A stretch of DNA of 64,000 bases from an uncultured Acidovorax sp. (GTDB lineage: Bacteria > Pseudomonadota > Gammaproteobacteria > Burkholderiales > Burkholderiaceae_C): positions 1-64,000 of the forward strand of contig CAJYHL010000036.1 of NCBI GenBank assembly GCA_913774625.1, in the 5' to 3' direction. Position numbers and translations under genes: made by a program. Positions 9,127 to 55,213 of the stretch are shown here, piece after piece (position 1 is the first letter of the stretch; every line of letters begins with the position of its first letter). Below the pieces are notes generated by a model. It was not told where the DNA came from. It saw only the letters and a program-made list of their open reading frames with translations, and searched no databases.

Positions 9127-9606
9127 TCAGGAGGAAATGGGGGGCTTGAGGGGCAGGGCCGAGCCTGCGCTGGCGAAGCGCGTGTCGGCTGCAGGCAGGC
9201 GGCCGGCATGGCGGGCCGCGAGGGCCGGGGTGATCGTGCCCGGTGCCAGCAGCACGGTGTGGCAGATCTCGCAGTCCGCGCAGGCCGTGTGGGCGTGCGG
9301 GGATGCAGAAGAAGAGGTGGGCGCGTCGCCGGCCTGCTGCGCCGTGCAGCCGCCGTGGCAGTGCCCGTCGGAAGTGGCGTGGACCATGGAAGCGCTGCCC
9401 ACGCCGTGGTCATGGCCCTGCATGGCGTGGCCCAGGCCTTCTTCCTTTTCCTCTTCTTCTCCCGGCTCTTCCACGGCCATGGCGGCGTGGACGGAGCCGG
9501 CCGCCATCTGCGGCAGCGCCATGCCCGCGCCCATGGCCGGGCCGACGAGCCCGCGCAGGGCCGTGAGCACGATCAGGAGCAGCAGGAGGCGTGAGCTGGA
9601 GCGCAT
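9127..9606 (-). CDS. DUF2946-like small metal-associated protein
   Basis: This is a 159-residue predicted exported protein. It opens with a hydrophobic signal (SSSRLLLLLIVLTALRGLVG), followed by an acidic run (EEPGEEEEKEEG), a His-rich patch (HAMQGHDHG, then DGHCHGGC) and a CADCEICHTVLL motif. This layout resembles DUF2946-type proteins found beside copper resistance genes, but the match is from memory only. The longer upstream reading frame is a shadow of the YitT gene. It is probably transcribed with the downstream His-rich gene across a 150-base gap. Confidence 0.6.
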   Translation of the reverse strand: MRSSSRLLLLLIVLTALRGLVGPAMGAGMALPQMAAGSVHAAMAVEEPGEEEEKEEGLGHAMQGHDHGVGSASMVHATSDGHCHGGCTAQQAGDAPTSSSASPHAHTACADCEICHTVLLAPGTITPALAARHAGRLPAADTRFASAGSALPLKPPISS

Positions 9607-9644: not shown

Positions 9645-10271
9645 TCAGACGGCCGTATAGCGCCCGGGCCGGTGGTTGAGCGCCAGCACCAGGTTCAGCG
9701 CCACCGCGCCCACGATGGAATAGGCCACGCGCAGCGGCTCCACCGTGAGCAGGGCCAGCAGCACAATGCAGCAATCGACGCCCATCTGCACCTTGCCGGC
9801 GCGCCAGCCGTAGCGGTCCTGCAGGTACAGCGCCAGGATGCCCACCCCGCCCAGGCTGCAGCGGTGGCGGAACAGCACCAGAAAGCCCGTGCCGGTGACG
9901 AGCCCGCCCGCCGCGGCGGCGTAGAGCGGCTGCAGCTGCGCGAACTGCAGGAAGTGCGGCTGCAGCGTGGTCAGCACCGACAGCAGCAGCACGGCGGCGA
10001 AGGTCTTGAAGGTGAAGCTGCGCCCCATCTTGCGCCAGGCCAGCCAGTAGAAGGGCAGGTTCAGCACGAAGAACAGGGCGCCGAAGCCCATGCCCGTGGC
10101 GTAATGGACCAGGAAGGCCAGCCCGGCCGTGCCGCCCGTGAGCAGGCCGGCGCTGGTGAAGAAGGCCACGCCGATGGAGATCAGCAGCACGCCGGTGAAG
10201 AGCGCGAGCGCGTCTTCCGTCGGGGAATGGGGAGCGGGGGCAGGAACGGGTGCGGAGATGGAGCGGCTCAT
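9645..10271 (-). CDS. YitT family membrane protein
   Basis: This is a 208-residue inner-membrane protein of the YitT (DUF161) family, transport-related but with no settled substrate. About five hydrophobic helices are visible. The family pattern near the first helices is LLISIGVAFFTSAGLLTGGTAGLAFL, followed by FFVLNLPFYWLAW. A later conserved stretch is TGTGFLVLFRHRCSLGGVGILALYLQDRYGWRAGKVQM. It ends 38 bases before the DUF2946-like gene on the same strand. Whether it belongs to the copper cluster is unclear. Confidence 0.85.
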   Translation of the reverse strand: MSRSISAPVPAPAPHSPTEDALALFTGVLLISIGVAFFTSAGLLTGGTAGLAFLVHYATGMGFGALFFVLNLPFYWLAWRKMGRSFTFKTFAAVLLLSVLTTLQPHFLQFAQLQPLYAAAAGGLVTGTGFLVLFRHRCSLGGVGILALYLQDRYGWRAGKVQMGVDCCIVLLALLTVEPLRVAYSIVGAVALNLVLALNHRPGRYTAV

Positions 10272-10388: not shown

Positions 10389-11282
10389 TCACGCGGCGGG
10401 CGGGCCCTGCTCGAACACCAGGCTGATCGCCGGGGCGTATTTCTCGCCGTGGCCGGCCTCGATGGCCTTCTGCAGCGTGGCCAGCAGGTTGCGCGCGCCG
10501 GTGGGATCGACGCCTACCTGCTCGCCCAGGGCGACGGCATACGAGATGTCCTTCTTGGCGTAGGTGACGGGGAAGGCCTTTTCGGGGAACTGCTGAGGCG
10601 CGATGGCCTTCATGCCATGGTTGCGCAGCGCGAAGCTGTCGGCCGAGCCGGTGGAGAAGGCCTGGAACAGCACGTCCGGCTGCACGCCCGCGCGCCGGCC
10701 GATGGCGGCGGCCTCGGAGAGCGCGAGCACGGTTTCGTAGAGCACCATGTTGTTGAGGATCTTCACCACCTGGCCGGCGCTGACGCCGCCGGCATGCGTG
10801 ACGTCCGAGGCGAAGGTGCGGATGAAGTGCTCGATGCGCCCGAACACCTCGGGGCTGGCGCCGACCGGCACGGCCAGGGTGCCGGCCTCGGCGGCGGCGC
10901 GCGTGCGCATGACGGGCGCGTCGGCGAAGGCGATGCCCTTGTCCTGCAGCAGCCGGGCCACTTCGAGCGTGACGTCGACCGACGAGGTGCTCAGGTCCAC
11001 CAGGGTGGTGCCGGGGCGCAGGCGCTCGGCCAGACCGCCGGGCGCGGCCACGACCTGCTTCATGACTTCGCCCGAAGGCAGCGACATGAACACGATGTCG
11101 GCCTGCGCGGTCAGTTCCTGCAGCGCCACGGTGCGCACGCCGTGTTCCGCGAGGCGCGCGAGCGGTTCCGCATTCAGGTCGGACGCGATCACGGGCGCGC
11201 CGCCCTTCGTTGCGATGTGCCGGCAGATGGGCTCGCCCATGACGCCGACGCCGATGAAACCCACGGTGGGGTGCTGCTGCAT
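10389..11282 (-). CDS. 3-hydroxyisobutyrate dehydrogenase-like NAD(P)-dependent oxidoreductase
   Basis: This is a 297-residue member of the beta-hydroxyacid dehydrogenase family, which oxidises 3-hydroxy acids or reduces the corresponding semialdehydes with NAD(P). The Rossmann motif GFIGVGVMGEPICRHI is at the N-terminus, followed by VFMSLPSGEVMKQV and the substrate-binding block DAPVMRTRAAAEAGTL. The catalytic lysine lies in AGQVVKILNNMV. AAGGAG sits seven bases before the ATG. It is the last gene of the catabolic cluster, 48 bases after the aldehyde dehydrogenase. A hydroxyacid/semialdehyde pair acting in sequence is plausible, but the substrate cannot be told from sequence. Confidence 0.88.
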   Translation of the reverse strand: MQQHPTVGFIGVGVMGEPICRHIATKGGAPVIASDLNAEPLARLAEHGVRTVALQELTAQADIVFMSLPSGEVMKQVVAAPGGLAERLRPGTTLVDLSTSSVDVTLEVARLLQDKGIAFADAPVMRTRAAAEAGTLAVPVGASPEVFGRIEHFIRTFASDVTHAGGVSAGQVVKILNNMVLYETVLALSEAAAIGRRAGVQPDVLFQAFSTGSADSFALRNHGMKAIAPQQFPEKAFPVTYAKKDISYAVALGEQVGVDPTGARNLLATLQKAIEAGHGEKYAPAISLVFEQGPPAA

Positions 11283-11330
11283 GTCTTGCTCCTTGTGTCT
11301 TGCTCTGTGCCGATAGCCGTTCCGGCCGGT

Positions 11331-12824
11331 TCAGCCCTGGATGTTGGCGGGGTTCATGCTCCAGTAGATGCCCTTGCTCTGCTGGTAGAGGCGCACGCCG
11401 GTCACGCCCTTCTCGCGGCCGATGCCGCTTTCCTTGAAGCCGCCGAAGGGCGTGGCGATCGACAGCTGCTTGTAGGTGTTGATCCAGACCAGGCCCGTTT
11501 CCAGCGCCCGGGCCACGCGCCAGGCGCGCTGGTAGTTGGCGGTCCAGATGCCGGAGGCCAGGCCGAAGGCCGTGTCGTTGGCCTGGGCGATCAGGTCGTC
11601 CTCGTCGTCGAAGGGCAGCACACAGAGCACGGGGCCGAAGATCTCCTCGCGCACGGCGGTGGCGCGGTTGTCCAGGCCGGCGATCACGGTGGGGCGGTAG
11701 AAGGCGCCGGCTGCCAGGCGGTCCTCTTCAGGGCGGGCGCCGCCGGCCAGGATCTGGCCGCCTTCGCGGCGGGCGCTGTCCACGATGGATTCGATGCGCT
11801 CGCGGTGCCGGAAGCCGGCCACCGGGCCCATCTGCGCGCCGGGCGCATCGGGCAGATCGACGCGCAGGCCGTTGGCGCGCTCCACCAGCATGGCGAGCAC
11901 GCGGTCCAGCACCTTGCGCTGCACGAAGAGGCGCGAGCCCGCCACGCAGGACTGGCCGCTGCCTTCGAAGATGCCGTCCACCACGCCGGCGACGGCCGCA
12001 TCCAGCTGGGCGTCGTCGAAGATGATGTGCGGCGACTTGCCCCCCAGTTCCAGCGCCACGGGAATCAGCCGCTGCGCAGCCACGGTGGCGATGTTGCGCC
12101 CGGTCTGCGTGCCGCCGGTGAAGGACACCATGCGCACGCCCGGGTGGTGGAGGATGGCGTTGCCCGTGACCGCGCCGGTGCCGGGCAGCACGTTGAGGAT
12201 GCCTGGCGGCAGGCCCGCCTCCTGGGCGATGCGCGCTACCGCCAGGCCCACGCTGGGAGTGACCTCGGAGGGCTTGAGCAGCACGGCGTTGCCCGCTGCC
12301 AGGGCCGGTGCGACCTTCTGCGCTTCCATGGTCATGGGCGAATTCCAGGGCGTGATGGCGGCCACCACGCCGTAGGGCTCGTAGGCCGTCATGGAGAGAT
12401 AGTCGCCGCGCGAGGGTGTCACCTCCGCACCCAGCGTCTCGCACACGGCGGCGTAGTAGCGGTAGGTGGCGGCGGCGCCGGCGACCTGCGTTTTGCATTC
12501 GCTCAGCACCTTGCCGTTCTCGATCATCTGCAGGTGCGCGAGTTCGTCCGCATTCGCGCGGATGCCGTCCGAGATCCGGCCCAGGATCTGCGCCCGCAGG
12601 TGCGGCAGCATGTCGCGCCAGCTTCTGGCCGATGCAGCGTCGCGCGCCGCCGTCACGGCGTCGTCCACCTGGGCGGCGCTGGCGGCGGTCACGCGGCAGT
12701 TGATGCGGCCGTTGGCCGGGTTGACGGAGTCGATGGCTCCGTCCTCGCTGCTGATCCACTGGCCGCCGATGAGCATCGGCTTGAGTTCGGGCGTTGTCGT
12801 CGTCATTGTTGTTTCCATGGGCAT
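11331..12824 (-). CDS. NAD(P)-dependent aldehyde dehydrogenase
   Basis: This is a ~497-residue class 1/2-type aldehyde dehydrogenase that oxidises an aldehyde to its acid. The active-site features are in order: the oxyanion Asn in ITPWNSPM, the NAD-binding FTGGTQTGR, the general base Glu in VALELGGKSPHIIFDDA, and the nucleophile Cys in GSGQSCVAGSRL. EIFGPVL and PFGGFKESGIGRE are also present. Three in-frame ATGs within 20 bases (12824, 12818, 12806) are possible starts; none has a strong ribosome binding site. The neighbours are a Bug receptor upstream and a hydroxyacid dehydrogenase downstream. Confidence 0.92.
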   Translation of the reverse strand: MPMETTMTTTTPELKPMLIGGQWISSEDGAIDSVNPANGRINCRVTAASAAQVDDAVTAARDAASARSWRDMLPHLRAQILGRISDGIRANADELAHLQMIENGKVLSECKTQVAGAAATYRYYAAVCETLGAEVTPSRGDYLSMTAYEPYGVVAAITPWNSPMTMEAQKVAPALAAGNAVLLKPSEVTPSVGLAVARIAQEAGLPPGILNVLPGTGAVTGNAILHHPGVRMVSFTGGTQTGRNIATVAAQRLIPVALELGGKSPHIIFDDAQLDAAVAGVVDGIFEGSGQSCVAGSRLFVQRKVLDRVLAMLVERANGLRVDLPDAPGAQMGPVAGFRHRERIESIVDSARREGGQILAGGARPEEDRLAAGAFYRPTVIAGLDNRATAVREEIFGPVLCVLPFDDEDDLIAQANDTAFGLASGIWTANYQRAWRVARALETGLVWINTYKQLSIATPFGGFKESGIGREKGVTGVRLYQQSKGIYWSMNPANIQG

Positions 12825-12922
12825 GGGAAGATCTTTTCTGTCGCGCGTCGAGAAGAGGAGGAAAGAAAGAAGGACGGAGTGAATGAGTGCGGCAGGCGGG
12901 GCAAGGGCGGGGGACTGGCCGG

Positions 12923-13909
12923 CTAGCTGATCACGGCGCCCGACTGCTTCACGATGTCCTGCCACTTGCGGAACTCGGCCTGCATGAAAGCGCTGAAGGC
13001 GGCCGGGTCGCTGGAGACCACCTCGCCGCCCAGGTCGATGAGCTTGGCCTTCAGCTCGGGCTGGTCCACCACCGCGCGGATGTCGCTCGAGATGCGGCCT
13101 TGCAGCGCGGTAGGCATCGATGCCGGCGCCAGGACGCCGAACCAGGTCGCGGCCTCGAAATGCGGCAGGCCCTGTTCCGCGAAGGTGGGAATCTCGGGCA
13201 CCTTCTCGACGCGCTTGCCGTTGGCGAGCGCGATCGCGCGCAGCTTGCCCGAGGCGATGTGCGGCAGCACCACCGTCAGCGTGGCGAACATGGCATCGAC
13301 GGAGCCACCCAGCAGGTCGGTGATGGCCGGCGCGTCGCCCCGGTAGGGCACGTGCAGCATGCGGGTCTTCATCGCGGCGTTGAACATTTCGCCGGTCAGC
13401 TGCTGGGCCGTGCCGTTGCCGGGCGACGCGAAGCTGGCCTTGTCGGGATTGGCGCGGACGTAGCGGGTGAATTCGTCCAGCGTCTTCACGTTCAGCGTGG
13501 GTCGCACGACCAGCACCAGCGGCACCTTGGCGATCAGGCTGAGCGGCGCGAAGTCCTTGACCGGGTCGTAGCCGAGCTTGGGGTAGATGAGTGCGCTCAC
13601 TACGTGCGCCGAGGTGGTCATGTAGAGCTGGTAGCCGTCGCCGGGCACGCGCGCCATCTGCGCGGCGGCCAGCGTCGTGCCTGCGCCCGGCTTGTTCTCG
13701 ACGATCACGGGCTGGCTCCAGCGCGGGCCCAGCTTGTCCGCGACCGCGCGGGCCACGATGTCGGTGGCGCCGCCGGCCGCATAGGGCACGACCATGCGCA
13801 CGGGCTCGGACGGGTACTTGGGTGCGGCCTGGGCCAGCGCCACGCCGGGCAGGGCGAGAGCCTGCAGCATGCCGCCCAGGGCCTGCCGCCGGTTGAAGTG
13901 GGTTGTCAT
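12923..13909 (-). CDS. Bug-family (TctC-like) periplasmic solute-binding protein
   Basis: This is a 328-residue periplasmic receptor of the tripartite tricarboxylate transporter family, which binds carboxylates, amino acids or aromatic acids. It has a Tat-like signal (FNRRQALGGMLQALALPGVALAQ). The Bug core follows: YPSEPVRMVVPYAAGGATDIVAR, then VENKPGAGTTLAA, FASPGNGTAQQLTGEMF, MLHVPYRGDAPAITDLLGG and VPTFAEQG-like motifs. AAGGAG lies eight bases before the ATG at 13909. No TctA or TctB membrane genes are in the cluster, which is common for orphan Bug proteins in Comamonadaceae and Bordetella; some act as sensors instead. Confidence 0.93.
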   Translation of the reverse strand: MTTHFNRRQALGGMLQALALPGVALAQAAPKYPSEPVRMVVPYAAGGATDIVARAVADKLGPRWSQPVIVENKPGAGTTLAAAQMARVPGDGYQLYMTTSAHVVSALIYPKLGYDPVKDFAPLSLIAKVPLVLVVRPTLNVKTLDEFTRYVRANPDKASFASPGNGTAQQLTGEMFNAAMKTRMLHVPYRGDAPAITDLLGGSVDAMFATLTVVLPHIASGKLRAIALANGKRVEKVPEIPTFAEQGLPHFEAATWFGVLAPASMPTALQGRISSDIRAVVDQPELKAKLIDLGGEVVSSDPAAFSAFMQAEFRKWQDIVKQSGAVIS

Positions 13910-13947
13910 CGTGGGTCTCCTTGTGTGTGCGGTGGGCGTGGCGGGGA

Positions 13948-14994
13948 TCAGATGCGGTAGAAGCGCGCGGCGCTGTCGTGGTAGAGCCAGCGCTTGTCGT
14001 CTTCGGGCAGGTCGGCCGTGATGCGCTTGAAGGCATTCCACAGCACGGCGTAGCTGCAGCTGCCCTTGTCCACCGGGAAGTTGCTCTCGAACATGCAGCG
14101 CCGGGGGCCGAAGAGCTCGATGCATTCGCGGATGTAGGGGCCCCAGGCCTGCGCCAGCTGGGCGGAGGTGGGCGGCGTCGGCTGCAGGTGGAAGGGAAAG
14201 CCGATCACGCTCATGCCCAGGCCGCCCAGCTTGACGGAGACGTTGGGCAGCTCGGCGATGCGGCGCATTTCGTTCCTCCATTCCGCGAAGACCTCGTCGC
14301 GGCGCCCGGCATAGGGGCCTGCGCCGACCGGTGCGCCCACATGGTCGATCACCACCGGCGTTTCGGGAAAGGCCCGCGCCAGGTCGGCGAGTTCTTCCAG
14401 CTGGGTGTGGTAGGCCCAGGAGTCGAAGCTCAGCCCGAACCGGGCGAGCCGCGAGAAGCCGTCGCGGAAGGCCCGGTCCATGTAGAGGTGCAGCGGCGGC
14501 GCCTGCATCACGCCGTACTGGAAGCGGTCGTGCGCAGCCGCATGGCAGCGGATGCCGCGGAAGCGCCCGGCTCCGGCCTCCAGATGGGCGGCCAGCACCT
14601 CCTCGACGGCTGCGCCCAGCGACAGGTCGGCGAAGCCGACGATGCCGGCGCACAGCTGCGTGGGGGGCAGCGCGGCCTGCTGTGCCAGCCCCGCCTCGCG
14701 GGCGATCTGCACCACCCGCTCGGTCTCGCCCACCGGGCGCAGGTGTTCCGGCCCGCTGTCGCGGTAGGCGAAGCCCACCTGGATGAAGACCGTGGACTCG
14801 ATGCGGTGGCCCGAGCCCAGGTCGGCCAGCAGGTCGCCTGCCAGGTAGCCGCCCCAGCCATGGTCCGAAAGGTGGTGGTGCGGGTCGATGATGGCGAGAT
14901 CGGGCTCCAGCGCCGCTTCGGTGTATTGAGCCAGCCAGGCCGGGCGCACCTCGGCGCGCGGGATGACGGGCAGGGAGGCGGTCTGTGGATTCAT
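13948..14994 (-). CDS. Amidohydrolase-family protein (amidohydrolase_2)
   Basis: This is a 348-residue metal-dependent hydrolase of the amidohydrolase_2 group, which includes lactonases such as 2-pyrone-4,6-dicarboxylate lactonase and decarboxylases. The N-terminal metal motif is IIDPHHHLSDHGWGGYL. Later barrel-strand motifs are RGIRCHAAAHD, PVVIDHVGAPVG, VSVKLGGLGMS and RCMFESNFPVDKG, giving the expected His, His and Asp/Glu ligands. The gene lies between livF and the Bug receptor. A ring-opening or lactone-hydrolysing step is likely; the exact substrate is unknown. Confidence 0.85.
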   Translation of the reverse strand: MNPQTASLPVIPRAEVRPAWLAQYTEAALEPDLAIIDPHHHLSDHGWGGYLAGDLLADLGSGHRIESTVFIQVGFAYRDSGPEHLRPVGETERVVQIAREAGLAQQAALPPTQLCAGIVGFADLSLGAAVEEVLAAHLEAGAGRFRGIRCHAAAHDRFQYGVMQAPPLHLYMDRAFRDGFSRLARFGLSFDSWAYHTQLEELADLARAFPETPVVIDHVGAPVGAGPYAGRRDEVFAEWRNEMRRIAELPNVSVKLGGLGMSVIGFPFHLQPTPPTSAQLAQAWGPYIRECIELFGPRRCMFESNFPVDKGSCSYAVLWNAFKRITADLPEDDKRWLYHDSAARFYRI

Positions 14995-15018
14995 CGGAGG
15001 ATCTCCATGCCTGTGGCG

Positions 15019-15732
15019 TCAGATGCCGAGGAAGGCCTTCTGCACGAAGGCGTCGTTCAGCAGTTCCTGCCCCGAGCCCGAGCGGATCACGCGGCCCTGC
15101 TCGAACACATAGGCGTCGTGCGACATCTTCAGGGCCAGCCGTGCGTTCTGCTCCACCAGGATGACCGAGATGCCGGTCTCCTCGTTCAGCGTGCGGATGG
15201 CTTGCGCGATCTCCGAGACGATCTTGGGCGCGATGCCCAGCGAGGGCTCATCCAGCATCAGGATCTGCGGGTGGGACATCATGGCCCGGCCGATGGCCAC
15301 CATCTGCTGCTCGCCGCCCGAGAGCGATCCGGCCATCTGCTCGCGGCGCTCCTTCACGCGCGGGAAGAGCGCATAGACCAGATCCAGCGACTGCCGGCGC
15401 TGCGCTGCCGAGCGCACCGTGTGCGCGCCCACCATCAGGTTCTCCCAGACCGACATGCGCGGAAAGAGCCGCCGGCCCTCTGGCGAGAGAGCGATGCCCA
15501 GGCCCACGCGCTGCGCGGCGTGCGTGCCGTGGATGGGCTGGCCGTCCAGCAGCAGCGCGCCGGAGCTCAGGGGCTTGAGGCCCATCAGCGCCTTGAGCGT
15601 GGTGCTCTTGCCGGCGCCGTTGGAGCCGATGAGGGCAACGATCTTCCCTGCCGCGATGCGGAAGCTCACGCCGTGCAGGGCCTGCACCAGTCCGTAGTGG
15701 ACGACGATGTCCTTGACCTCAAGCGTGCGCAT
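15019..15732 (-). CDS. livF: Branched-chain amino acid-type ABC transporter ATPase LivF
   Basis: This is one of two ATPases that power a Liv-type ABC importer. The 237 residues show Walker [15 protein letters not shown], signature [16 protein letters not shown], Walker [12 protein letters not shown] and the H-loop [12 protein letters not shown], which has Gln in place of the common His as LivF proteins do. I prefer the ATG at 15732 because GGGAG lies nine bases upstream; an ATG two codons earlier (15738) has poorer spacing. The intact livG frame would overlap this start by about 14 bases, so the genes are normally translationally coupled. Confidence 0.93.
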
Positions 15733-16496
15733 CTTCATCCACTCCCAGGTAGGCCTCAATCACGACGGGGCTGTTGCGGATCTCTTCGGCCGTGCCCTGC
15801 GCGATCTTCTGTCCATGGACCAGAACGATGATCTTGTCGCGTTCCCATCACCAGCGCCATGTGGTGTTCCACGAAGAGCAGCGAGATGCGGTGCTCGTCG
15901 CGCAGCGTCTTCAGCAGCCGGCCGAACTCGGCGCATTCTTCGGGGTTGAGGCCGGCGGCCGGCTCGTCGAGCAGCAGCAGCCTCGGACGCGTGGCGAGAC
16001 CGATGGCTACGCCGATGCGCTTCTGGTGCCCGTAGGCCAGCGCGCCCGCGATCTCGTGCCGCAGGGGGGCGAGGCCGGTGATTTCCAGCACCTTGTCCAC
16101 TGCCTCGCGCACCCGGCGGCGTGCGTCGCGGTAGGCCGCTGTCTGCGCGATCTGGGCCCAGACGGGCACGTCGAAGTGGCAAAGTGCCCCCCGGTAGATG
16201 TTCTCTTCCACCGTCGATTGCGGATAGACCGTGGCCGACTGGAAGGTGCGTGCCAGGCCGTGGCGCACGACCTGGCTGGGCTTGCGGCCGGTGATGTCCG
16301 TGCCGGCGAAGACGATGCGGCCGGCCGAGGGCGCCAGCGCGCCGCTGATCATGCCGAAGGCCGTGCTCTTGCCGGCGCCGTTCGGGCCGATCAGGCCGAC
16401 GATCTCGCCTTCGTTCAGCGTGAAGCTCAGGTCGCGCACGGCAGCCAGGCCGCCGAAGTTCTTGCCCAGGCCTTCGATGGTGAGCAGTGCGGTCAT
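15719..16496 (-). pseudogene. livG: Liv-type ABC transporter ATPase LivG, frameshifted near its 3' end
   Basis: The second importer ATPase. The first ~214 residues are normal: Walker A GPNGAGKSTAFGM, the long LivG insert, signature ALAYGHQKRIGVAIGLA (a weak signature, normal for LivG), Walker B LLLLDEPAAGLNP and H-loop [13 protein letters not shown]. Then the frame breaks at about 15844-15850. The frame as read ends at 15756 with an unrelated tail ([16 protein letters not shown]), while another frame carries the expected LivG end, [20 protein letters not shown] and then VIEAYLGVD, down to a stop at 15719. The pattern fits loss of two bases. All ATP-binding motifs lie before the break, so residual function is possible. 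A sequencing error cannot be excluded. Confidence 0.75.
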
Positions 16497-17503
16497 CGCG
16501 CGCCTCCCTTGCTGCCGCGCAGGCGGGCGGCTATGCCGACCAGCCCCATGGGCAGGAACTTGAGCACCAGGATCAGCGTGATGCCGTACAGGATGTTCTG
16601 CGTCTCGATCGCGCTGCGGAACAGCTCCGGCAGCGGCGTCATGATCAGCGCGCCCAGGATGGGGCCCAGCACCGAGGCCCGCCCGCCGATCACCAGCATG
16701 ATGATGGCCGCCACCGACACGTGCTGGCTGAACGATTCGGGCGACACGAAGCCCAGGTAGTGCGCCAGCAGCGCGCCGGCAAAGCCGGCCATGGCGCTGC
16801 CCAGCAGGAAGGCGAACATCTGCGAGCCCTGGATGCCGATGCCGCTGGCCTCGGCCAGCTCGGGGTTGTCGCCCACGGCATCCAGCGAATGTCCCCGGGG
16901 CGTCTTGAACAGCGCGACCAGCAGCACGGTGGAGGCGAAGGCGCAGGCCGCTGCAAGGACGTAGAACGACAGCTTGCTGTCCAGCGCCACGCCGAAGAGG
17001 CTGGCCGGCGGGATGTTCGCGATGCCGTTGGCGCCGCCCGTGAGGTCGCCGCCTTCGAGCAGCACTAACCGGAACAGCTCGCCGAAGCAGAAGGTGACCA
17101 GCACGAAGTACACGCCCTGCAGCCGCAGGATCACGGCGCCCAGCAGCCAGGCCACCAGCGTGGCCGTGCCCATGCCCGCCAGCACCGAAACGGCGAAGGG
17201 CGTGTGCAGGCGCGTGCTGCAGATCACGGACGCGAACGCACCCATGCCCATGAAGGCGGCATGGCAGAACGACAGCTGGCCGGTGCGGCTGATGAGCGAC
17301 AGCCCGTTCACGAAGATGATGTTGATGCAGATCAGCACCGCCAGGTGGACGTAGAACGGGTTGCCTGCCAGCAGCGGCGGAATGGCGAAGAGCACGAGCA
17401 GCGCCGGGATCCAGGCCTTCCAGGCGCCGCCGGGCGTGGCGGCAGGGGCCAGTGCGGGTGCCTTCGCGCCGGAGGGGTGTTGCATGGTGGAAGCGTTGTC
17501 CAT
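16493..17503 (-). CDS. livM: Liv-type ABC transporter permease LivM
   Basis: This is one of the two membrane subunits of the importer. The 336 residues have about ten hydrophobic segments, with a cytoplasmic N-terminal stretch of ~35 residues and the LivM-type motifs LLAGNPFYVHLAVLICINIIFVNGLSLISRTGQLSFCHAAFMGMGA and SLDAVGDNPELAEASGI, the latter being the ATPase-contacting loop. Its stop overlaps the livG start by four bases (ATGA), and its start is three bases after the livH stop, so the set is one operon. Substrates of this family include amino acids, urea and aromatic acids. Confidence 0.94.
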   Translation of the reverse strand: MDNASTMQHPSGAKAPALAPAATPGGAWKAWIPALLVLFAIPPLLAGNPFYVHLAVLICINIIFVNGLSLISRTGQLSFCHAAFMGMGAFASVICSTRLHTPFAVSVLAGMGTATLVAWLLGAVILRLQGVYFVLVTFCFGELFRLVLLEGGDLTGGANGIANIPPASLFGVALDSKLSFYVLAAACAFASTVLLVALFKTPRGHSLDAVGDNPELAEASGIGIQGSQMFAFLLGSAMAGFAGALLAHYLGFVSPESFSQHVSVAAIIMLVIGGRASVLGPILGALIMTPLPELFRSAIETQNILYGITLILVLKFLPMGLVGIAARLRGSKGGAR

Positions 17504-17506
17504 GGT

Positions 17507-18376
17507 TCAGCGGCCCGCCTTTCCGAGCAGGCCCGAGGGGCGGAAGATCAGCATGAGGATCACGAAGCCGAAGAGCAGCATGTCGGAGAAGCTGCTCGAC
17601 ATGAAGGTGTTGGCCACGCTCTCGAACACGCCCAGCAGCAGCGCCGCCAGCGCCGCGCCCGGAATGCTGCCCAGGCCGCCCAGGATCACCACGATGAAGG
17701 CCTTGAGCAGCGGCGTGGAGCCGATGCCGGGCGACACCGAGAAGACGGGCGCCATGAGTGCGCCGGCCACGGCCGCCAGCGCGACGCCGATGCCGAAGCC
17801 CAGCGGATACATGAACTGCGAGCGGATGCCCTGGGCGTTGGCGATCTCGATGTCCTGCACCACCGCCCGCAGGGCGCGGCCGCCGCGGCTGTGCATCAGG
17901 AAGCCGTAGAGCAGCGCCAGCACCACCAGTGAGAACGCCACCACGTAGAGGCGCGACATGGGCAGCATCACCGGCCCGAGCGACACCACGCCCTCGGCCA
18001 CGGCGGGCATGGATTGCGGATCGGGCCCGAAGACCATCAGGGCACCGTTCTGCAGGATCATCGCCAGCCCGATGGTGGCGATCATCCCGTTGAGCTCGTC
18101 TCCCCGGAAGCTTTTGAGCACCACGACCTCGATCACCCAGCCGGCGACCAGGGTGAGCGCGAAGGTGGCGAGCACCGCAGCCAGGAAGGGCAGCTGCAGC
18201 CTGGTGACGCATACATAGGCGGAGAAGGCGCCCAGCATGTAGAACTCGCCATGCGCGAAGTTGACCACGCGCATGACGCCGAAGACCAGCGTGAAGCCGA
18301 TGGCCATCAGCAGGTAGAGCAGCCCGATGATGAGCCCGTTGCTCAAAGCCTGGCCCAGCAGGAAGGTGAAATCCAC
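17507..18376 (-). CDS. livH: Liv-type ABC transporter permease LivH
   Basis: This is the other membrane subunit, 289 residues with about eight hydrophobic helices. LivH motifs are GLIIGLLYLLMAIGFTLVFGVMRVVNFAHGEFYMLGA at the N-terminus, GGRALRAVVQDIEIANAQGI as the coupling helix, and VVILGGLGSIPGAALAALLLG toward the end. It follows livK by 33 bases and is followed directly by livM. The length and helix pattern are normal, so apart from livG the importer looks complete. Confidence 0.94.
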   Translation of the reverse strand: MDFTFLLGQALSNGLIIGLLYLLMAIGFTLVFGVMRVVNFAHGEFYMLGAFSAYVCVTRLQLPFLAAVLATFALTLVAGWVIEVVVLKSFRGDELNGMIATIGLAMILQNGALMVFGPDPQSMPAVAEGVVSLGPVMLPMSRLYVVAFSLVVLALLYGFLMHSRGGRALRAVVQDIEIANAQGIRSQFMYPLGFGIGVALAAVAGALMAPVFSVSPGIGSTPLLKAFIVVILGGLGSIPGAALAALLLGVFESVANTFMSSSFSDMLLFGFVILMLIFRPSGLLGKAGR

Positions 18377-18409
18377 GGCGGTGTTCCCGAAGCGGCGCTC
18401 AGCGCCGGA

Positions 18410-19564
18410 TCACTTGCAGCCCGTGAGCGTGCAGCTGGCCTCGACCACTTCCTGGCCGTCCTGCACGCGGGCGATGTAGAAGGGTGCGTCGATCTGGTGG
18501 GCAATCCCATAGACGCCCGCGCCCGTCCAGTTCAGCGTGCCCAGGATGCCCTTGTAGTCCTTGATGTTCTCCAGGGCCACGCGCACCTTGTCGGTGCCGG
18601 TCGCAGTGCCGGCGGTGGACATGGCCTGCAGCAGCATGTGCGTGCCGTCGTAGAAGGCCGGGCTGAAGCCGTTCATGCGCTTCTTGTACTTGGCGAAGTA
18701 GCGTTCGGCATAGGCCTTGACGGCAGGGTTGGCCGGATCGATCGGCGTGTTGACCAGCATGCCGTTGGTGGCGGCGGCACCCGCCACGTTCACGATCTCG
18801 GGCGTGGCCGGGCCGCCGCTGCGGATGATGAGGCCCTTGAAGCCCAGTTCGCGCGCCTGCTTGACGATGAGGCCCGCGGTGCCGGGCGCGTTGCCGTCCA
18901 GCTCGATGGCGTCCACGCCCTTGGCCATCAGGCGGGTGAGCAGCGGCATCATGTCCACGCGCTCGCGCTCGAAGAATTCCTTGGCGTTCAGCTGGGCGCC
19001 GGCCTTGCCGTAGGCCTTTTCCAGGTCCTGCGCGATCTGCTGGCCGGTTTCGTCGTTGGGGAACAGCCCGCCCACCTTCTTGATGCCCTTGGCCTTCACG
19101 ATCCAGTCGATCTGGGGCTGGGACGTCTCCATGGTCGTCAGGTTGGGGCGGAAGTTGAACGGCTTGTCCTTGCCCAGGGCCTTGTCGGTGAAGCCCAGCG
19201 TGAGCATCACCACCTTGTTCTTGTTCACGATGGGCGACACCGCCAGCGCGGCGGCGGATCCCACCGGGCCGATGATGTACTTCACCTTGTCTTCGAAGAT
19301 CAGGCGGTTTGCCGCCGTCACGGCTTCGCCTGCCTGGTACTTGTCGTCGTAGGCCACCACCTTGACGGGGTACTTCTTGCCGCCCACCTCCAGCCCGCCC
19401 TTGGCGTTCACGTCCTCGGCCGCGAGCTCGGTGGCGTAGAGCATGGCCTGGCCCCAGGCCGCGCCAGCGCCTGAAAGGGTGACGATGGCGCCGATCTTGA
19501 TGTCTTCCTGGGCGGATGCTGTGCCGGCGAGGCACAGGGCGGCGATGGCGATGATCTTCTTCAT
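18410..19564 (-). CDS. Liv-type periplasmic substrate-binding protein
   Basis: This is a 384-residue receptor for the ABC importer. A signal peptide (KKIIAIAALCLAGTASAQ) is followed by the type 1 periplasmic-binding fold: IKIGAIVTLSGAGAAWGQ, then GLEVGGKKYPVKVVAYDDKYQ, VKYIIGPVGSAAALAVSPIV and FYDGTHMLLQAM. AGGAG lies nine bases before the ATG. A pair of Cys at the C-terminus (ASCTLTGC) could form a disulfide. In this gene neighbourhood the ligand is more likely a carboxylic or aromatic acid linked to the Tcu enzymes than a branched-chain amino acid; that is inference. Confidence 0.92.
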   Translation of the reverse strand: MKKIIAIAALCLAGTASAQEDIKIGAIVTLSGAGAAWGQAMLYATELAAEDVNAKGGLEVGGKKYPVKVVAYDDKYQAGEAVTAANRLIFEDKVKYIIGPVGSAAALAVSPIVNKNKVVMLTLGFTDKALGKDKPFNFRPNLTTMETSQPQIDWIVKAKGIKKVGGLFPNDETGQQIAQDLEKAYGKAGAQLNAKEFFERERVDMMPLLTRLMAKGVDAIELDGNAPGTAGLIVKQARELGFKGLIIRSGGPATPEIVNVAGAAATNGMLVNTPIDPANPAVKAYAERYFAKYKKRMNGFSPAFYDGTHMLLQAMSTAGTATGTDKVRVALENIKDYKGILGTLNWTGAGVYGIAHQIDAPFYIARVQDGQEVVEASCTLTGCK

Positions 19565-19618
19565 GGTCTTGTCTCCTGGAGGTTTCGTTCGTCGTAGTCG
19601 GGGGCGGGACAGGGGGCG

Positions 19619-20488
19619 CTAGCCTTGCGCGATGGCCTGCAGCACGGGGCCGATGTATTTCTTGAACTGCGCGGGGTTCTCGCTCATGGGGAAGTGGCCC
19701 AGTTCCTTCATGACCACGGCCTGCGCGCCTGGAATGCCGCGCGCGGTGCGCAGGGTGTCTTCGGGGCTGCAAGAGAAGTCGTATTCGCCGGTCAGCAGGT
19801 AGAGCGGCGTGCGGGCGGTATCGATGCCGCCCAGCCGGCCGCGCAGGTCGGAATCGACGCGGTAGAAGTACAGGTCGCCGCGGAAGATGCCGGGGCCGCT
19901 CTGCTGGTACTGCCACAGGGTTTCATGGCGGTACTGCGCGGGGCTCTGCGGCGCGACCAGGCCCGAGACCAGCGCGGCGCAGACCTCGCCCCCGTGCACG
20001 TCGGGACGGTTCAGCCAGCTCGTGTCGTACCAGGGCTGCTGGTGGTCGGCGCCTTCGAGGCCGATGAGCGCGCGGAACTCCCCGCCGTGGGCGTGCGCCA
20101 GCTGCAGCACGATGCGCCCGCCGATCGAGCAGCCCATGACCACCGGCCGGTCCAGCCCCAGCGCCGCGATGAACGCGCGGATGGTGGCCACGTAGCGCTC
20201 GGTGGTCAGCTCGTAGTCGCGGTCCTGGAAGCCGACGGGCGGGTAGGACTTGCCGTGCCAGGGCATGTCGAACGCGATCACGCGGAAGCGCGAGGTGATG
20301 TCCTCGTCGCACAGCAGGTGGCGGAACTGGCGGCCGTCCGAGCCGGCGGTGTGCAGGCAGAGCAGCGGGATGCCTTCGCCGCATTCCTCGAAGTACACGC
20401 GGCAGGTCTCGCCCAGGATGTCCACATGGACATAGCGGCCCACGATGGGCTCCAGGGTGGCTTGCATGGCTTTTCCTTGCGTCGGCAT
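19619..20488 (-). CDS. Alpha/beta-fold hydrolase
   Basis: This is a 289-residue cytoplasmic hydrolase. The nucleophile elbow is GCSIGG with Ser121, the acid is in LLTGEYDFSC and the base His in ELGHFPM, a complete Ser-Asp-His triad. LLCLHTAGSDGRQF carries the oxyanion-hole region. The family includes enol-lactone, C-C bond and ester hydrolases. The ATG at 20488 overlaps the stop of the preceding gene (TGATG). A second ATG seven codons in (20467) has a better ribosome binding site (AAGGA, six bases). It lies between the SCP2-like gene and livK, so import and hydrolysis are encoded together. Confidence 0.88.
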   Translation of the reverse strand: MPTQGKAMQATLEPIVGRYVHVDILGETCRVYFEECGEGIPLLCLHTAGSDGRQFRHLLCDEDITSRFRVIAFDMPWHGKSYPPVGFQDRDYELTTERYVATIRAFIAALGLDRPVVMGCSIGGRIVLQLAHAHGGEFRALIGLEGADHQQPWYDTSWLNRPDVHGGEVCAALVSGLVAPQSPAQYRHETLWQYQQSGPGIFRGDLYFYRVDSDLRGRLGGIDTARTPLYLLTGEYDFSCSPEDTLRTARGIPGAQAVVMKELGHFPMSENPAQFKKYIGPVLQAIAQG

Positions 20489-20877
20489 CAGTGGGCGCCC
20501 CGGGCCTGGCGGGGTGCGGCCAGCACATCCTTCAGGTACTGCAGGTGGGCGAACAGCAGCTGCGAATCGCCCTCGATGCCCATGGCCCCGCGCTTGGTCA
20601 GCGCGAAGAGGTCGTGCCAGCCGGCCTGCGGTACAGGCTCCCAGAGGGCCTCCCAGGCCGCTTCCGCCGCGCGGATGGTCAGGGTCGCCGGCGCGAAAAG
20701 GGGCATCTGCCGGGACAGGCTTTCCACCCGGCCGCTGCGGATGCTCAGCAGATAGGGCACCTCGCCCAGCACCACCTTCAGGTCGGCGTTCAGGTAGCGG
20801 CCGCGGTGCACCAGACGGGCATCGGCGTTCACGCGCGGCGCGATGGATTCGAAGCGCTGCTGCAGGGATTCGGTCAT
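20488..20877 (-). CDS. Small SCP2-like protein of unknown function
   Basis: This is a 129-residue soluble protein. I do not recognise it with certainty. The pattern (LSIRSGRVESLSRQM, LTIRAAEAAWEALW, then GIEGDSQLLFAHLQYLKDVL) resembles the SCP2 sterol-carrier fold, which binds acyl or other hydrophobic ligands. It lies between tcuB and the hydrolase with a one-base overlap to the latter. A role in holding a hydrophobic substrate or acyl thioester for the hydrolase is possible but not shown. Confidence 0.55.
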   Translation of the reverse strand: MTESLQQRFESIAPRVNADARLVHRGRYLNADLKVVLGEVPYLLSIRSGRVESLSRQMPLFAPATLTIRAAEAAWEALWEPVPQAGWHDLFALTKRGAMGIEGDSQLLFAHLQYLKDVLAAPRQARGAH

Positions 20878-20902
20878 GCCGGTTCCTTTCGCGGGGGGCT
20901 GC

Positions 20903-22111
20903 TCAGTCCGCGCCCAGGCCGATCGGGCTGGGCTGGCGCTTTTCGGTTGTGTGGCGCAGCAGGGCGGCGCTGCGGAAGATGCCGTGGGCGAACTTGCCGT
21001 AGGGCAGGGTGGCGAAGAGCGCGATCACCGCGCCCAGGTGCAGGCACAGCAGCAGGGCCAGGGCCGGGGTGGCGCGCGCCAGCCAAAGCGCCATGCCGCT
21101 GGCGGCCACGAGGAAGAGCAGGGCGATGAACCCCAGGTCCATGGGTTTCTGGCGTGGATCGCCGTGCAGCGGGTGGCGGCGCTGGCGCAGCGTCCAGAGG
21201 CCCGCGGTGCCGGCCATCAGGGCCAGGCCGCCCGCCGCGCCCAGCAGCTTGGGCAGGCTGGGCAGTTCGTAGGGGGCGACCCAGCCAAACAGGTAGTGGT
21301 AGAGCGTGCCGGTGGCCGTGGCGGCGAAGCACAGCAGGAAGCCGTAGAAGGTCAGATGGTGGAAGCGCCGGCGCTGCAAGGTGTAGGCGTCGTCCTCGTT
21401 GTTGCAGCCCTCGCCGTGGCCGCCGCCCAGGTATCTGAGGCGCAGCACGTCGGAGGCGGCCTCGGCGGCGGCGGGCGCGTCCACGTCCACGCCGCTGGTC
21501 GCGGGCTTCACGTCCTTCCAGAAGCGGCGCACGCCCATCGCCAGAGCGAACACCGCGAAGAGGAACACCGGCGCGAAGAGGCCCGCCAGCAGGTTGTGCG
21601 GGAACAGGTGGTAGAAGTTGTTGCCCAGGCCGCCGTCCCACAAGCGCCCGACGCCGCCCTGCAGCGCCACGGCCAGCGCCAGGAAGAGAAAGAGGCCCGC
21701 CGCCAGCGCCAGCGACAGCGTGAGGCCGTTGCGCTGGTAGAGCCGGCCCAGGGCGGGCGGCCAGGCGTAGTCCACGTAGGTCTGGCCGCGCACCTCGGCC
21801 ATGGCCTGGGGGATGTTCACGCCGAATTCATGTGGCGGCGCGTACTGGCAGGCATGCAGGCAGGCGCCGCAGTTGTGGCAGAGGTTGGCGAGGTAATGCA
21901 CGTCGGCCTTGCCGAACTCCAGCCGCCGCGTCATGGCGGGGAACACCGCGCAGAAGCCTTCGCAGTAGCGGCAGGCATTGCAGATCTGCAGGGCGCGGGC
22001 CACCTCGGCCTCCGCGGCGGTCTCGGTGGGCGCGGGGAGGATGGGAATGACCTGGCGCGCTGCGGGCGCCCGGTCCTGAAGCGCGTCGGCCATGATGTTC
22101 TGTTGCTGCAT
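20903..22111 (-). CDS. tcuB: TcuB-like Fe-S/membrane electron carrier (CitB/TcuB family)
   Basis: This is a 402-residue membrane protein that re-oxidises the FADH2 of TcuA and passes electrons to the quinone pool. The N-terminal part has two Cys clusters, [11 protein letters not shown] and [13 protein letters not shown], each the CxxCxxCxxxC pattern of iron-sulfur sites. About six hydrophobic helices follow, with His residues in [20 protein letters not shown] and [10 protein letters not shown] suitable for haem or quinone contact. The start at 22111 lies five bases after the tcuA stop. In Salmonella TcuAB convert tricarballylate to cis-aconitate; the substrate here may differ. Confidence 0.88.
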
Positions 22112-22116
22112 GTCTG

Positions 22117-23559
22117 TCAGGCCCCGTGGTGGTCGTTCACAGCGCCGCGCAGGGCGGGCTTGCCGGCTGCGGCCAGCGCTGCATTGCGCCCGGCGATGCG
22201 GCCGAAGGCCGTGCCGATGGACATGCCCACGCCGGCCGTGTAGCCCTTGCCCAGCACGTTGCCGGCCATCATTTCGCCCGCCACGAACAGGTTGGCGCTG
22301 GGCTGGCCGTCGAAGCGCACGGCGGCCGTGTCGTCGGTCTTCAGGCCCAGATAGGTGAATGTGATGCCCGGGCGCAGCGCATAGCCGTAGAAGGGCGGCG
22401 TGTCGATCGGGCGGGCCCAGTGCGTCTTGGCGGGCGCGACGTCCTCGGTGCGGCAGTCGTCCAGCGCCGTGTGGTCGAAGCGCCCGGGCCGGCAGCCGGC
22501 GTTGTAGGCGTCCAGGGTCTGCATGAAGCGCTCCACGTCCAGGCCGAGCTTGGAGGCCAGTTCGGGCAGCGAGCCGGCCTGCTCGCCCGGGAACACCGGC
22601 GGCATGAAGCGGCCGATGGCCTTGGCGTCGATGACCGAATAGGCGATCTGCCCCGGCTGCTGGGCCACCAGGCGCCCCCAGATGGCATAGCGCTTGGGCC
22701 AGAAGTCTTCGCCCTCGTCGTAGAAGCGCTGGGCGTCCTGGTTGACCACCACGCCCAGCGAGACGCAGTCGATGCGCGTGCAGATGCCGCCGTCGTAGAG
22801 CGGCGCCCGCGCGTCGATGGCCACCATGTGGGCCTGCGTGGGGTCGCCGATGCCGTCGGCCTGCTGCTGCAGCATGTGCTGGAGCAGCACGCCCTGGTTG
22901 AAGGCCGTGCCCCGTATCAGGAAGTTGTCGGCCGGCCATTCGCCGCGCTCGTTGCGGCCCCAGGCCTCGCGCAGCCATTCGCGGTTGGACTCGAAGCCGC
23001 CCGCGGCCAGCACGCAGCTGCGCGCTGTGATGCGTTGCTCGCCGGTCCAGGCCGCCTTGAATTCGCCGCCCTCGATCTCCAGCCGCTGCACGGGCGCGTC
23101 GTAGCGCACCTGCACGCCCAGGGCTTCGGCGCTGCGGTAATAGGCGTTCACCAGGGCCTTGCCGCCGCCCATGAAGAAGGCATTGGTGCGCGCCACGTGC
23201 AGCGCGCCCGACAGCGGCGGCTGGAAATGCACGCCGTGGCGGCGCATCCAGCCGCGGCAGGTGGACGAGGCACGGATCACCATGCGGGCCAGGTGCTCGT
23301 CGGTGAGGCCGCCCGTCACCTTCAGCAGGTCCTGCCAGAACTCCTCTTCGGAATAGGCCTCGACCAGCACGTCCTGCGGTGCGTCGTGCATGCAGCGCAG
23401 GTTGCGGGTGTGGGCCGAATTGCCGCCTCGCCAGGCGCGCGGAGCCGCTTCCAGCAGCAGCACCCGGGCTCCGGCTTCTCGCGCCATCAGAGCGGCGCAC
23501 AGGGCGGCATTGCCGCCACCGATGACCAGGACATCGGTGTCGAAGTTGTCTCGCTTCAT
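22117..23559 (-). CDS. tcuA: TcuA-like FAD-dependent dehydrogenase (tricarballylate dehydrogenase family)
   Basis: This is a 480-residue flavoprotein of the fumarate reductase/succinate dehydrogenase superfamily. The FAD motif is [22 protein letters not shown], with the second dinucleotide contact in [19 protein letters not shown]-terminal family motifs are [50 protein letters not shown] (conserved Gly-rich FAD contact). In Salmonella TcuA oxidises tricarballylate to cis-aconitate and needs TcuB to be re-oxidised. Here it is the first gene of the unit behind the LysR box, with tcuB five bases later. Confidence 0.9.
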
Positions 23560-23619
23560 CTTGGGCAGCGACAGGCGCGAGGCCGGCCGCAGTTCGACGT
23601 TTTGTTGGTGTTGCGCCGG

Positions 23620-23684
23620 ACTATAGGAATCGCTGCCGCCCCTGAGCAGGGGCTCGACCTTATGGGGGTATCACGTTATGTGAT
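23620..23684 (-). promoter_or_regulatory. Predicted tcuA promoter with LysR-type operator
   Basis: An inverted repeat ATCAC-N5-GTGAT (23670-23684) contains the T-N11-A form of a LysR-type binding box. It overlaps the lysR stop codon. A good -10 element, TATAGT, lies at 23620-23625 on the minus strand, with no clear -35, as expected of an activator-dependent promoter. If transcription starts near 23613, the box is centred at about -64, the usual place for the LysR recognition site. The tcuA start follows about 55 bases later. Confidence 0.6.
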
Positions 23685-24630
23685 GGGTCGGGCGCTCGGT
23701 CAGCGTGGCGCCGATCCACTCGCCCGAGCGCACCAGCCGCCGGGCGCAGTCGATCATCACCACGCGCGCCGCCAGCCCGGCCGGCGAGAGTTCGTCGTCC
23801 GACAGGCTGCACAGCGCCGCGTCGCGCCGGACCTTGTCGTCGGCGATCTCCGACCACTGGAAGCGCTCGGCAGCGTCCTGGTGCAGCGCCACGGCCGACC
23901 AGGGCTGCACCGTGGCGCCGAAGCCCGAGGCCACGGCCTCCATCAGCACCGGCAGCGAGTCGATCTCCATCGCCATCGGTGGCTGCACGCCCGCGCTGGC
24001 GAACGAAGCCATCACCGTGCTGCGCAGGCCGTGGCTGCCAGAAGGCATGATGAGCGGCACCGTGCCGAGCTGCGCCAGGCGCACGGGCTGGGCGTGGGCG
24101 ATGCCGGGCGCCACGGGCTGGCGGCGCGACTGGATGAGGAACAGGCGTTCCTCCAGCAGCGGGATCACGCTCCAGCGCCGGCCGCTGTGGGTGTCGAACA
24201 GGATGGCCAGGTCCAGCTGCCGCGCGTTGAGCAGGCCCGTGAGATGCCCCGACAGTGCCGAGACGACGTGCAGCCGCACGTCCGGATAGCGCTCCTGCAT
24301 GGCGCGCAGCAGCGGCATGCCCAGCACCGAGGCGATGGTGGGCGACAGGCCCATGCTCACCGCGCCCGACAGCCGCGCCTGCTGGGCCGCCAGGACGGCC
24401 TGGTCGGCATGGCGCAGCGTGAGCTGGGCCTCGTGGAAGAAGGCCTGGCCCGCTTCGGTGGGCATGACCCCGCGCGGCGTGCGCTGAAGCAGCCGCGTGG
24501 AGAGTTCCGATTCCAGTCGCGCGATCTGCTGGCTCAGGGCGGACTGCACGAGATCCAGGTCCAGCGCGGCGCGGCTCATGGAGCCCAGCTCGACGATGCG
24601 CACGAAGTAGCGGAGTTGTCTCAGTTCCAT
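23671..24630 (-). CDS. LysR-family transcriptional regulator of the tcu-like cluster
   Basis: This is a 319-residue regulator. The helix-turn-helix is at the N-terminus: MELRQLRYFVRIVELGSMSRAALDLDLVQSALSQQIARLESEL, followed by the linker and the effector domain from ~residue 90 (GAVSMGLSPTIASVLGMPLL). The TcuR role, activation of tcuAB in response to substrate, is the natural assignment. Unlike many LysR genes it is encoded on the same strand directly upstream of its target rather than divergently. Its stop codon lies inside the predicted operator for tcuA. Confidence 0.9.
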   Translation of the reverse strand: MELRQLRYFVRIVELGSMSRAALDLDLVQSALSQQIARLESELSTRLLQRTPRGVMPTEAGQAFFHEAQLTLRHADQAVLAAQQARLSGAVSMGLSPTIASVLGMPLLRAMQERYPDVRLHVVSALSGHLTGLLNARQLDLAILFDTHSGRRWSVIPLLEERLFLIQSRRQPVAPGIAHAQPVRLAQLGTVPLIMPSGSHGLRSTVMASFASAGVQPPMAMEIDSLPVLMEAVASGFGATVQPWSAVALHQDAAERFQWSEIADDKVRRDAALCSLSDDELSPAGLAARVVMIDCARRLVRSGEWIGATLTERPTHHIT

Positions 24631-24695: not shown

Positions 24696-26801
<2,106 letters not shown>

Positions 26802-26851
26802 GGCGGGGTGATCCTCTGTGCTGCGGCCCGCTCCCTGCGGGCCATGCCATG

Positions 26852-26882
26852 ATTGAAAACCTTGAAGCCGCTCGAAGGTCAA
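26852..26882 (-). promoter_or_regulatory. cadA promoter with CadR (MerR-type) operator
   Basis: On the minus strand a -35 element TTGACC (26877-26882) is separated by 19 bases from TTCAAT (26852-26857). This over-long spacer is the hallmark of MerR-controlled promoters. The spacer is filled by an imperfect 21-base dyad with outer arms ACCTT and AAGGT (26859-26879), matching the form of known ZntR/CadR/PbrR sites. The dyad lies seven bases upstream of the cadR ATG, so it probably also controls cadR. Confidence 0.82.
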
Positions 26883-26885
26883 GCC

Positions 26886-55099: not shown

Positions 55100-55213
55100 G
55101 GTGCGGGTGTCCTTGTTCTTTCGATGAATCAACCCGCGATCTTCTCATGAGACGGCCGGCCCTGTTCGGGTGCCAGCCCACTGAAGGATGGCACTCGAAG
55201 TGGTTTCCGGCTC

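Follow-up and report, generated by a model that had tools for sequence, protein, structure and literature searches.

The 64,000-nucleotide stretch analysed here (the window), positions 1 to 64,000 of contig CAJYHL010000036.1 from an uncultured Acidovorax sp., carries 14 co-directional genes that may form a single catabolic unit. The block encodes a LysR-type regulator, the tricarballylate dehydrogenase pair TcuAB, a small protein (p129) with its partner alpha/beta hydrolase (ABH), a LivKHMGF importer, an amidohydrolase, a Bug-type periplasmic receptor, an aldehyde dehydrogenase (ALDH) and a hydroxyacid dehydrogenase of the 3-hydroxyisobutyrate dehydrogenase family (HIBADH). This gene content points to a BlcABC-like lactone route that would end in tricarballylate, which TcuAB would convert to cis-aconitate; we put the probability of this reading at roughly 45%. 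That the genes belong to one catabolic system, as a first-pass annotation had proposed, is supported at the level of sequence by the presence or absence of the block as a whole in close relatives, by the recurrence of the set in other genomes and by the co-occurrence of its core with TcuA. The lactone or ester plus semialdehyde route put forward in that annotation is likewise supported; the order of the steps and the substrate are what we infer.

A discrete block at one genomic site

A gene caller whose codon model was trained on the window places the 14 genes on the minus strand in an unbroken run from 24630 to 10389 (Table 1), bearing out the co-directional set first described, with exact coordinates. 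We compared this site with stretches of 19.9 kb from two genomes of the same genus, G088 and G801. Both keep the P-type ATPase/MerR/Mla flank and genes of the other flank, and in both all 14 genes are missing at the site (each stretch has a 30% LivF match elsewhere). In G088, the P-type ATPase is followed within ~200 bp by a homologue of the gene at 9127-9606, the YitT-type gene being absent; in G801, 2.7 kb and the YitT-type gene lie between the conserved flanks. The block boundaries agree with the coordinates first annotated. The rest of G088 yielded no TcuA, p129, LivK or HIBADH at the limits used (E<=1e-60 for HIBADH). Paracidovorax oryzae (L016) and an Acidovorax metagenome-assembled genome (L017) have the whole set, its gene order unchanged, and there too it adjoins the P-type ATPase. 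The 14 genes are a discrete unit, present or absent as one block at one site. Chance clustering was considered and is unlikely, because two congeneric genomes keep the flanks without any of the 14 genes.

A recurring core with three lactonase families

A scan for p129 found relatives in 9 genomes, and additional genome searches found further ones; 36 plus 29 neighbourhoods were read. Loci with p129, ABH and LivK, found by any one of the three, were counted as module loci, of which there are 28 in addition to the window. Some of these are cut by contig ends or by the limits of the 20-kb stretch, and L181, which starts at LivK, was left out of the count. The reference set used for annotation includes metallo-beta-lactamase (MBL), SMP-30 and IclR proteins from the counted loci, and L020, L023 and L028 match themselves at 100%.

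A lactonase-family gene lies near the core in 27 of the 28 loci, the sole exception being L187. Three unrelated families are represented: Amidohydro_2 in 7 loci, MBL in 18 and SMP-30 in 2. In 24 loci (7 amidohydrolase, 17 MBL) this gene stands directly after LivF in the same direction. The main reason for proposing lactone opening is that unrelated hydrolases swap near one core. Further genes in the 28 loci are ALDH (22, at >=50% identity), HIBADH (20, at >=45% identity), Bug (16), an IclR regulator (16) and TcuA (6). The HIBADH gene of L024 had been missed by the gene caller and was found by tblastn, those of G885, G891, G913 and G136 lie 12-14 kb away, and 13 of 14 module genomes tested have HIBADH at E<=1e-60. 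In the alphaproteobacteria Martelella mediterranea and Palleronia, p129-ABH-LivKHMGF-ALDH and TcuB-TcuA-HIBADH-SMP30 run divergently. Apart from the order, this is almost the same set, SMP-30 standing in for the amidohydrolase and no Bug or LysR gene being counted.

Arrays with the same type of LivKHMGF and an MBL gene after LivF also occur without the p129-ABH pair (L189:5747-15839 and, alike, L179, L183, L186, L191 and L192). The L189 array additionally holds a luciferase-like monooxygenase, AtuA, DUF4387 and MmgE/PrpD; arrays of this type perhaps make their own lactone by oxygenation.

Hydrolases and dehydrogenases of the block

Pfam and NCBIfam scans confirm the gene assignments of the first-pass annotation, except that p129, which has no Pfam match at E<=0.001, is SCP2-like by a fold model of modest confidence; no SCP2 relatives were found by sequence in its own genome. 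For ABH, PcaD-type models score highest in NCBIfam, at 61 bits, far under the PcaD cut-off of 255.85. Its residues S114, D230 and H258 are invariant in 45 of 45 aligned rows. The p129-ABH pair occurs in Burkholderiales and as far afield as one plasmid of Peribacillus and one of a haloarchaeon. It would make up a hydrolase of two proteins, the smaller of which belongs to no Pfam family. A fusion of the two in Rhodococcus DK180 (L038) is not claimed (hhalign probability 18%, E 0.0013, N-terminal part).

Four roseobacter plasmids (L026, L027, L035 and L036) carry p129-ABH near muconate cycloisomerase genes, with a catechol/intradiol dioxygenase as well in three of the four. There the pair may stand in for the muconolactone isomerase and enol-lactonase steps, and the placing of ABH relatives near catechol genes suggests enol-lactones or butenolides as possible ABH substrates.

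The lactonase candidate of the window itself is the amidohydrolase, which matches the fuconolactonase model NF052480 at 66 bits, far under the cut-off of 400. No Lactamase_B match, as expected of a BlcC-like metallo-beta-lactamase fold, was found among the 14 genes with Pfam. The MBL proteins of the other module loci have HxHxDH in 26 of 26. ALDH and HIBADH both fall in the matching Pfam families, yet stay under every NCBIfam cut-off among the matches listed (for ALDH, 25 of 44 families). ALDH residues C287 and E253 are invariant in 27 of 27 rows. The nearest solved relative of HIBADH is 3cky, a 2-hydroxymethylglutarate dehydrogenase; five solved relatives aligned have [ST]GG in the substrate loop, where the window type has R-T-R. 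R126, T127 and R128, together with K174, are invariant in 23 of 23 rows of >=50% identity, and the R-T-R loop would fit an extra carboxylate on the substrate.

TcuAB and its association with the core

Both proteins of the pair score above curated cut-offs (TcuA 764.5 bits against 369 for NF006130; TcuB 666.5 bits against 524 for NF011607). Plasmid genes of Salmonella and E. coli that are annotated tcuA match the TcuA of the block with 79.6% identity over 445 aa. In trees the protein is nested within other Burkholderiales TcuA, and it shares 84-88% identity with TcuA encoded at loci apart from the module. Because of this identity and nesting, TcuAB of the block most likely still oxidizes tricarballylate, and the novelty would lie upstream; the earlier suggestion that the substrate differs does not hold as applied to TcuAB.

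All 13 genomes that were selected because they hold a p129 relative have TcuA, at 76-94% identity; it lies beside the module in 3 and outside the stretch read around p129 in 10. Contig ends truncate two of the loci, L022 and L024; L022 stops at p129, leaving its Liv linkage unseen and a nearby TcuA possible. The background frequency of TcuA is 40/300 genomes in the order, 42/150 in the family of the window and 80/151 in family f4. In f4, where module detection was LivK at E<=1e-100 and diverged modules may therefore be missed, TcuA is found in 15/15 module genomes against 65/136 others (Fisher p 4e-5); counted by genus, the figures are 9/9 with the module against 16/34 (p 0.006). In the family of the window, they are 4/4 module genomes, the window's own included, against 38/146 (p 0.006). 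Among LivK-positive f4 genomes, 19/20 have TcuA, the exception, G920, having a 33% TcuA-like gene. At the level of the phylum, LivK at E<=1e-110 was found in 3/398 genomes, and in two of these the stretch read had no p129. Where p129 genomes of the order sample show no visible Liv module, TcuA is found in 6/22; several p129 contigs of this sample are short and may conceal a Liv module.

We also asked how adjacency is distributed on the TcuA tree, setting module-adjacent rows against rows of module genomes with TcuA elsewhere. Supported nodes force at least 4 changes (gains or losses), the adjacent rows being the Acidovorax group, Paraburkholderia unamae, G912 and the two alphaproteobacteria. 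The sister branch of the window TcuA group (modest support, 91/71) consists of TcuA from three module genomes that carry the gene elsewhere; because these sister genes lie away from the module, the window TcuA was probably moved beside it. In G912 (L175:7017-8116), where TcuA also adjoins the module, TcuB was split into two open reading frames by the gene caller, reflecting a broken gene or a sequence error. More distant TcuA-like flavoproteins, at 32-34% identity, stand beside some of ALDH, HIBADH and Liv at L105:4938-6437, L190:4326-5843 and L194:12016-13536; the two that were scanned (L190 and L194) score above the cut-off of one TcuA model and below that of the other.

These data bear on the idea that tcuRAB has simply come to lie beside an unrelated Liv-lactonase-ALDH module, the two serving different nutrients and sharing a promoter at most. 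TcuA is outside the stretch read in 22 of the 28 module loci, LysR-tcuAB-Bug loci exist alone and TcuA is common in these families, all of which speak for mere neighbours. However, the 13 of 13 genomes with TcuA, the repeated changes in adjacency on the tree and the behaviour of the 14 genes as one block all argue otherwise, and we consider this explanation unlikely. The first-pass annotation had named independent occurrence of the tcu, liv and ALDH blocks as evidence against a single system, and half of this was found: TcuA is near in 6 of the 28 loci, yet it is in the genome in all 10 of the 13 cases that lack it nearby.

A second alternative is that TcuAB here dehydrogenates another intermediate before hydrolysis, such as a saturated lactone or a hydroxymethyl or formyl diacid, and not tricarballylate. 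TcuA-like paralogues beside some of Liv, HIBADH and ALDH (L105, L190, L193 and L194) are in its favour, as is the TcuA of Martelella and Palleronia, which is only ~54% identical to that of the window. The position of the window protein within Burkholderiales TcuA, close to TcuA distant from any module, speaks against such a change of substrate, which we regard as improbable.

Proposed pathway and its difficulties

In the lactone-to-tricarballylate route, LivKHMGF, perhaps together with the Bug receptor, would import a small carboxylated lactone or ester, which the p129-ABH pair and the amidohydrolase would open. The HIBADH-like enzyme would then oxidize the freed primary alcohol to a semialdehyde, ALDH would take the semialdehyde to tricarballylate, and TcuAB would yield cis-aconitate, which joins the citric acid cycle. 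The scheme follows the logic of BlcABC, which leads from gamma-butyrolactone by way of hydroxybutyrate and succinic semialdehyde to succinate, on a skeleton that bears a carboxymethyl group. Tricarballylate is carboxymethylsuccinate, and a carboxymethyl-butyrolactone acted on by a lactonase and by alcohol and aldehyde dehydrogenases would thus give the TcuAB substrate. As the simplest substrate that would fit, our guess is 2- or 3-(carboxymethyl)-gamma-butyrolactone, or such a lactone as an ester or in unsaturated form. A bolder version, in which this is a widespread and undescribed route from carboxylated lactones through tricarballylate to the citric acid cycle, with an obligate SCP2-fold/hydrolase pair and three interchangeable lactonase families, is put forward tentatively and with more doubt than belief.

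The substrate might instead be an ester of tricarballylate with a hydroxy compound, split by ABH as an esterase while p129 holds the hydrophobic part, the alcohol passing to HIBADH and ALDH and the acid to TcuAB. The co-occurrence of TcuA, the esterase fold of ABH and an SCP2-like partner suited to a hydrophobic ligand agree with this, and the fumonisin carboxylesterase that frees tricarballylate is a precedent in principle (PMC4843849, PMC10204369; both sources available in part). An ester alone would not need the lactonase-family gene found near in 27 of the 28 loci, no aminotransferase or carboxylesterase type B family was found in Pfam scans of the 14 genes, and TcuA is often missing (16/22) in p129 genomes without a visible Liv module; we therefore think an ester split of this kind rather improbable. 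Fumonisin-type catabolism as such was set aside and is retained as a rival only, since the block has no FumD/FumI-type family.

Several observations weigh against the lactone-to-tricarballylate route. No ALDH lies in the stretch read at 6 of the 28 module loci (L018, L120, L121, L169, L171 and L172) and no HIBADH at 8 of the 28, and HIBADH was not found in Cupriavidus basilensis at E<=1e-60. In NCBIfam, the amidohydrolase stays below the lactonase cut-offs, and no match at 1e-25 was obtained for the MBL protein of L023 or for the SMP-30 protein of L028. ABH relatives on the roseobacter plasmids sit with catechol genes, so the chemistry of ABH may be broader. TcuA is in the stretch read at only 6 of the 28 other module loci, and by the listed coordinates it is not close to p129 in any of the other 23 p129 genomes from the order sample. 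It is common in the families concerned and tracks genus, so the Fisher tests overstate independence through kinship. On the TcuA tree, the four changes may include losses, 59 of 500 label shuffles gave an equally low number, and the alphaproteobacterial proteins sit on long branches. Finally, all five components of the full LivKHMGF importer claimed in the first-pass annotation are present (receptor, two permeases and two ATPases by Pfam), but the last ~32 codons of LivG are out of frame, whereas in L016, L017 and L018 the frame stays open to a LivG-type C terminus; the break is either an assembly error or a real mutation.

Layout of the block and its surroundings

From TcuA through Bug (eleven genes), the intergenic gaps are at most 54 bp, for which reason these genes are read as one operon; the gap is 116 bp before ALDH and 48 bp before HIBADH. 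A promoter scan gave one promoter-like site, over the TcuA-TcuB junction (0.7 in shuffles), and a terminator scan gave 5 terminator-like sites against 5.2 in shuffles; both are uninformative.

Table 1 Genes of the 14-gene block in transcriptional order
Product	Position	Strand	Basis
LysR-type regulator	23671..24630	-	Pfam HTH_1 PF00126 and LysR_substrate PF03466
TcuA, FAD-dependent tricarballylate dehydrogenase	22117..23559	-	NCBIfam NF006130; trees
TcuB, 4Fe-4S membrane partner of TcuA	20903..22111	-	NCBIfam NF011607
p129, putative SCP2-like partner of ABH	20488..20877	-	Fold model
ABH, alpha/beta hydrolase, PcaD-like	19619..20467	-	Pfam Abhydrolase_1
LivK-type solute receptor	18410..19564	-	Peripla_BP_6
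LivH-type permease	17507..18376	-	BPD_transp_2
LivM-type permease	16493..17503	-	BPD_transp_2
LivG-type ATPase, C-terminal ~32 codons out of frame in assembly	15756..16496	-	ABC_tran; tail compared with L016-L018
LivF-type ATPase	15019..15738	-	ABC_tran; best NCBIfam model LivF, below its cut-off
Amidohydrolase-2, proposed lactonase	13948..14994	-	PF04909 (Amidohydro_2)
Bug/TctC-type periplasmic receptor	12923..13909	-	PF03401 (TctC)
ALDH, aldehyde dehydrogenase	11331..12806	-	PF00171 (Aldedh)
HIBADH-family hydroxyacid dehydrogenase, R-T-R loop replacing [ST]GG	10389..11282	-	PF03446/PF14833 (NAD_binding_2/NAD_binding_11)

The nearest solved relative of the Bug receptor is a terephthalate-binding protein. 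TcuC is a major facilitator superfamily (MFS) protein, and the first-pass annotation saw it as replaced here by Liv and Bug. No MFS or Sugar_tr match, as expected of a TcuC-type permease, was found in Pfam scans of the 14 genes, so that part stands. However, in 2 of 4 annotated tcuA loci (Comamonas antarctica and Variovorax; gene tables incomplete), tcuAB is followed by a Bug gene and no permease is listed next to it. Because such loci occur elsewhere, the missing TcuC is not special to the block, and replacement by Bug was rejected as a distinguishing trait.

A heavy-metal P-type ATPase (24696-26801) lies on one side of the block and a YitT-type membrane protein (9645-10271) on the other. The ATPase is divergent from a MerR-family regulator (24696-27344), and this pair is kept beside the block site in relatives. 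Elsewhere in the window, 55000-60000 is low in GC (0.55-0.58 against 0.68) and encodes clostripain-type and subtilase-type proteases.

Relation to known systems

The block is a real, conserved and apparently undescribed catabolic unit, a variant of known lactone and tricarballylate systems; our literature search, from whose coverage subscription papers are mostly missing, found no paper describing this gene set. Tricarballylate is not known to be a common soil nutrient. If the proposed route is correct, tricarballylate dehydrogenase gains a natural upstream pathway in soil bacteria, and production of tricarballylate by the module would help to explain why TcuAB is retained in families where TcuA is frequent, such as f4 (80/151 genomes). 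The swapping of three lactonase families near one core also offers a sharp and cheap biochemical test.

Salmonella TcuA converts tricarballylate to cis-aconitate (PMC10468695, available in part). The block shares with Salmonella tcuRABC the same TcuA and TcuB families and a LysR gene next to tcuA, and differs from it in having eleven further genes, which would serve uptake, hydrolysis and aldehyde oxidation, and in lacking an MFS-type permease. Models of PcaD, the 3-oxoadipate enol-lactonase, fit ABH best, and in the roseobacter cat/ben clusters of several plasmids p129-ABH has muconate cycloisomerase or catechol dioxygenase genes as neighbours; unlike these systems, the block has an ABH far below the PcaD cut-off and no ring-cleavage gene. 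Fumonisin esterases release tricarballylate side chains, according to the available parts of PMC4843849 and PMC10204369. The fum cluster of Sphingopyxis sp. MTA144 (compared by fumD and fumI only) is, on that partial basis, alike in having a hydrolase that frees tricarballylate, but it uses a carboxylesterase and an aminotransferase instead of ABH/p129 with a lactonase.

The closest parallel in logic is blcABC (attKLM) of Agrobacterium. BlcB is an iron alcohol dehydrogenase, whereas the block has an HIBADH-like dehydrogenase and an amidohydrolase as lactonase candidate, plus ABH, p129, Liv and TcuAB. In blcABC, gamma-butyrolactone is converted through hydroxybutyrate to succinic semialdehyde (PMC5924552, available in part). 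As far as that source extends, the two systems share the logic of a lactonase (a candidate in the block), a hydroxyacid dehydrogenase and a semialdehyde dehydrogenase, and relatives of the module have an MBL-fold enzyme in 18 of the 28 loci and often (16 of the 28) an IclR regulator.

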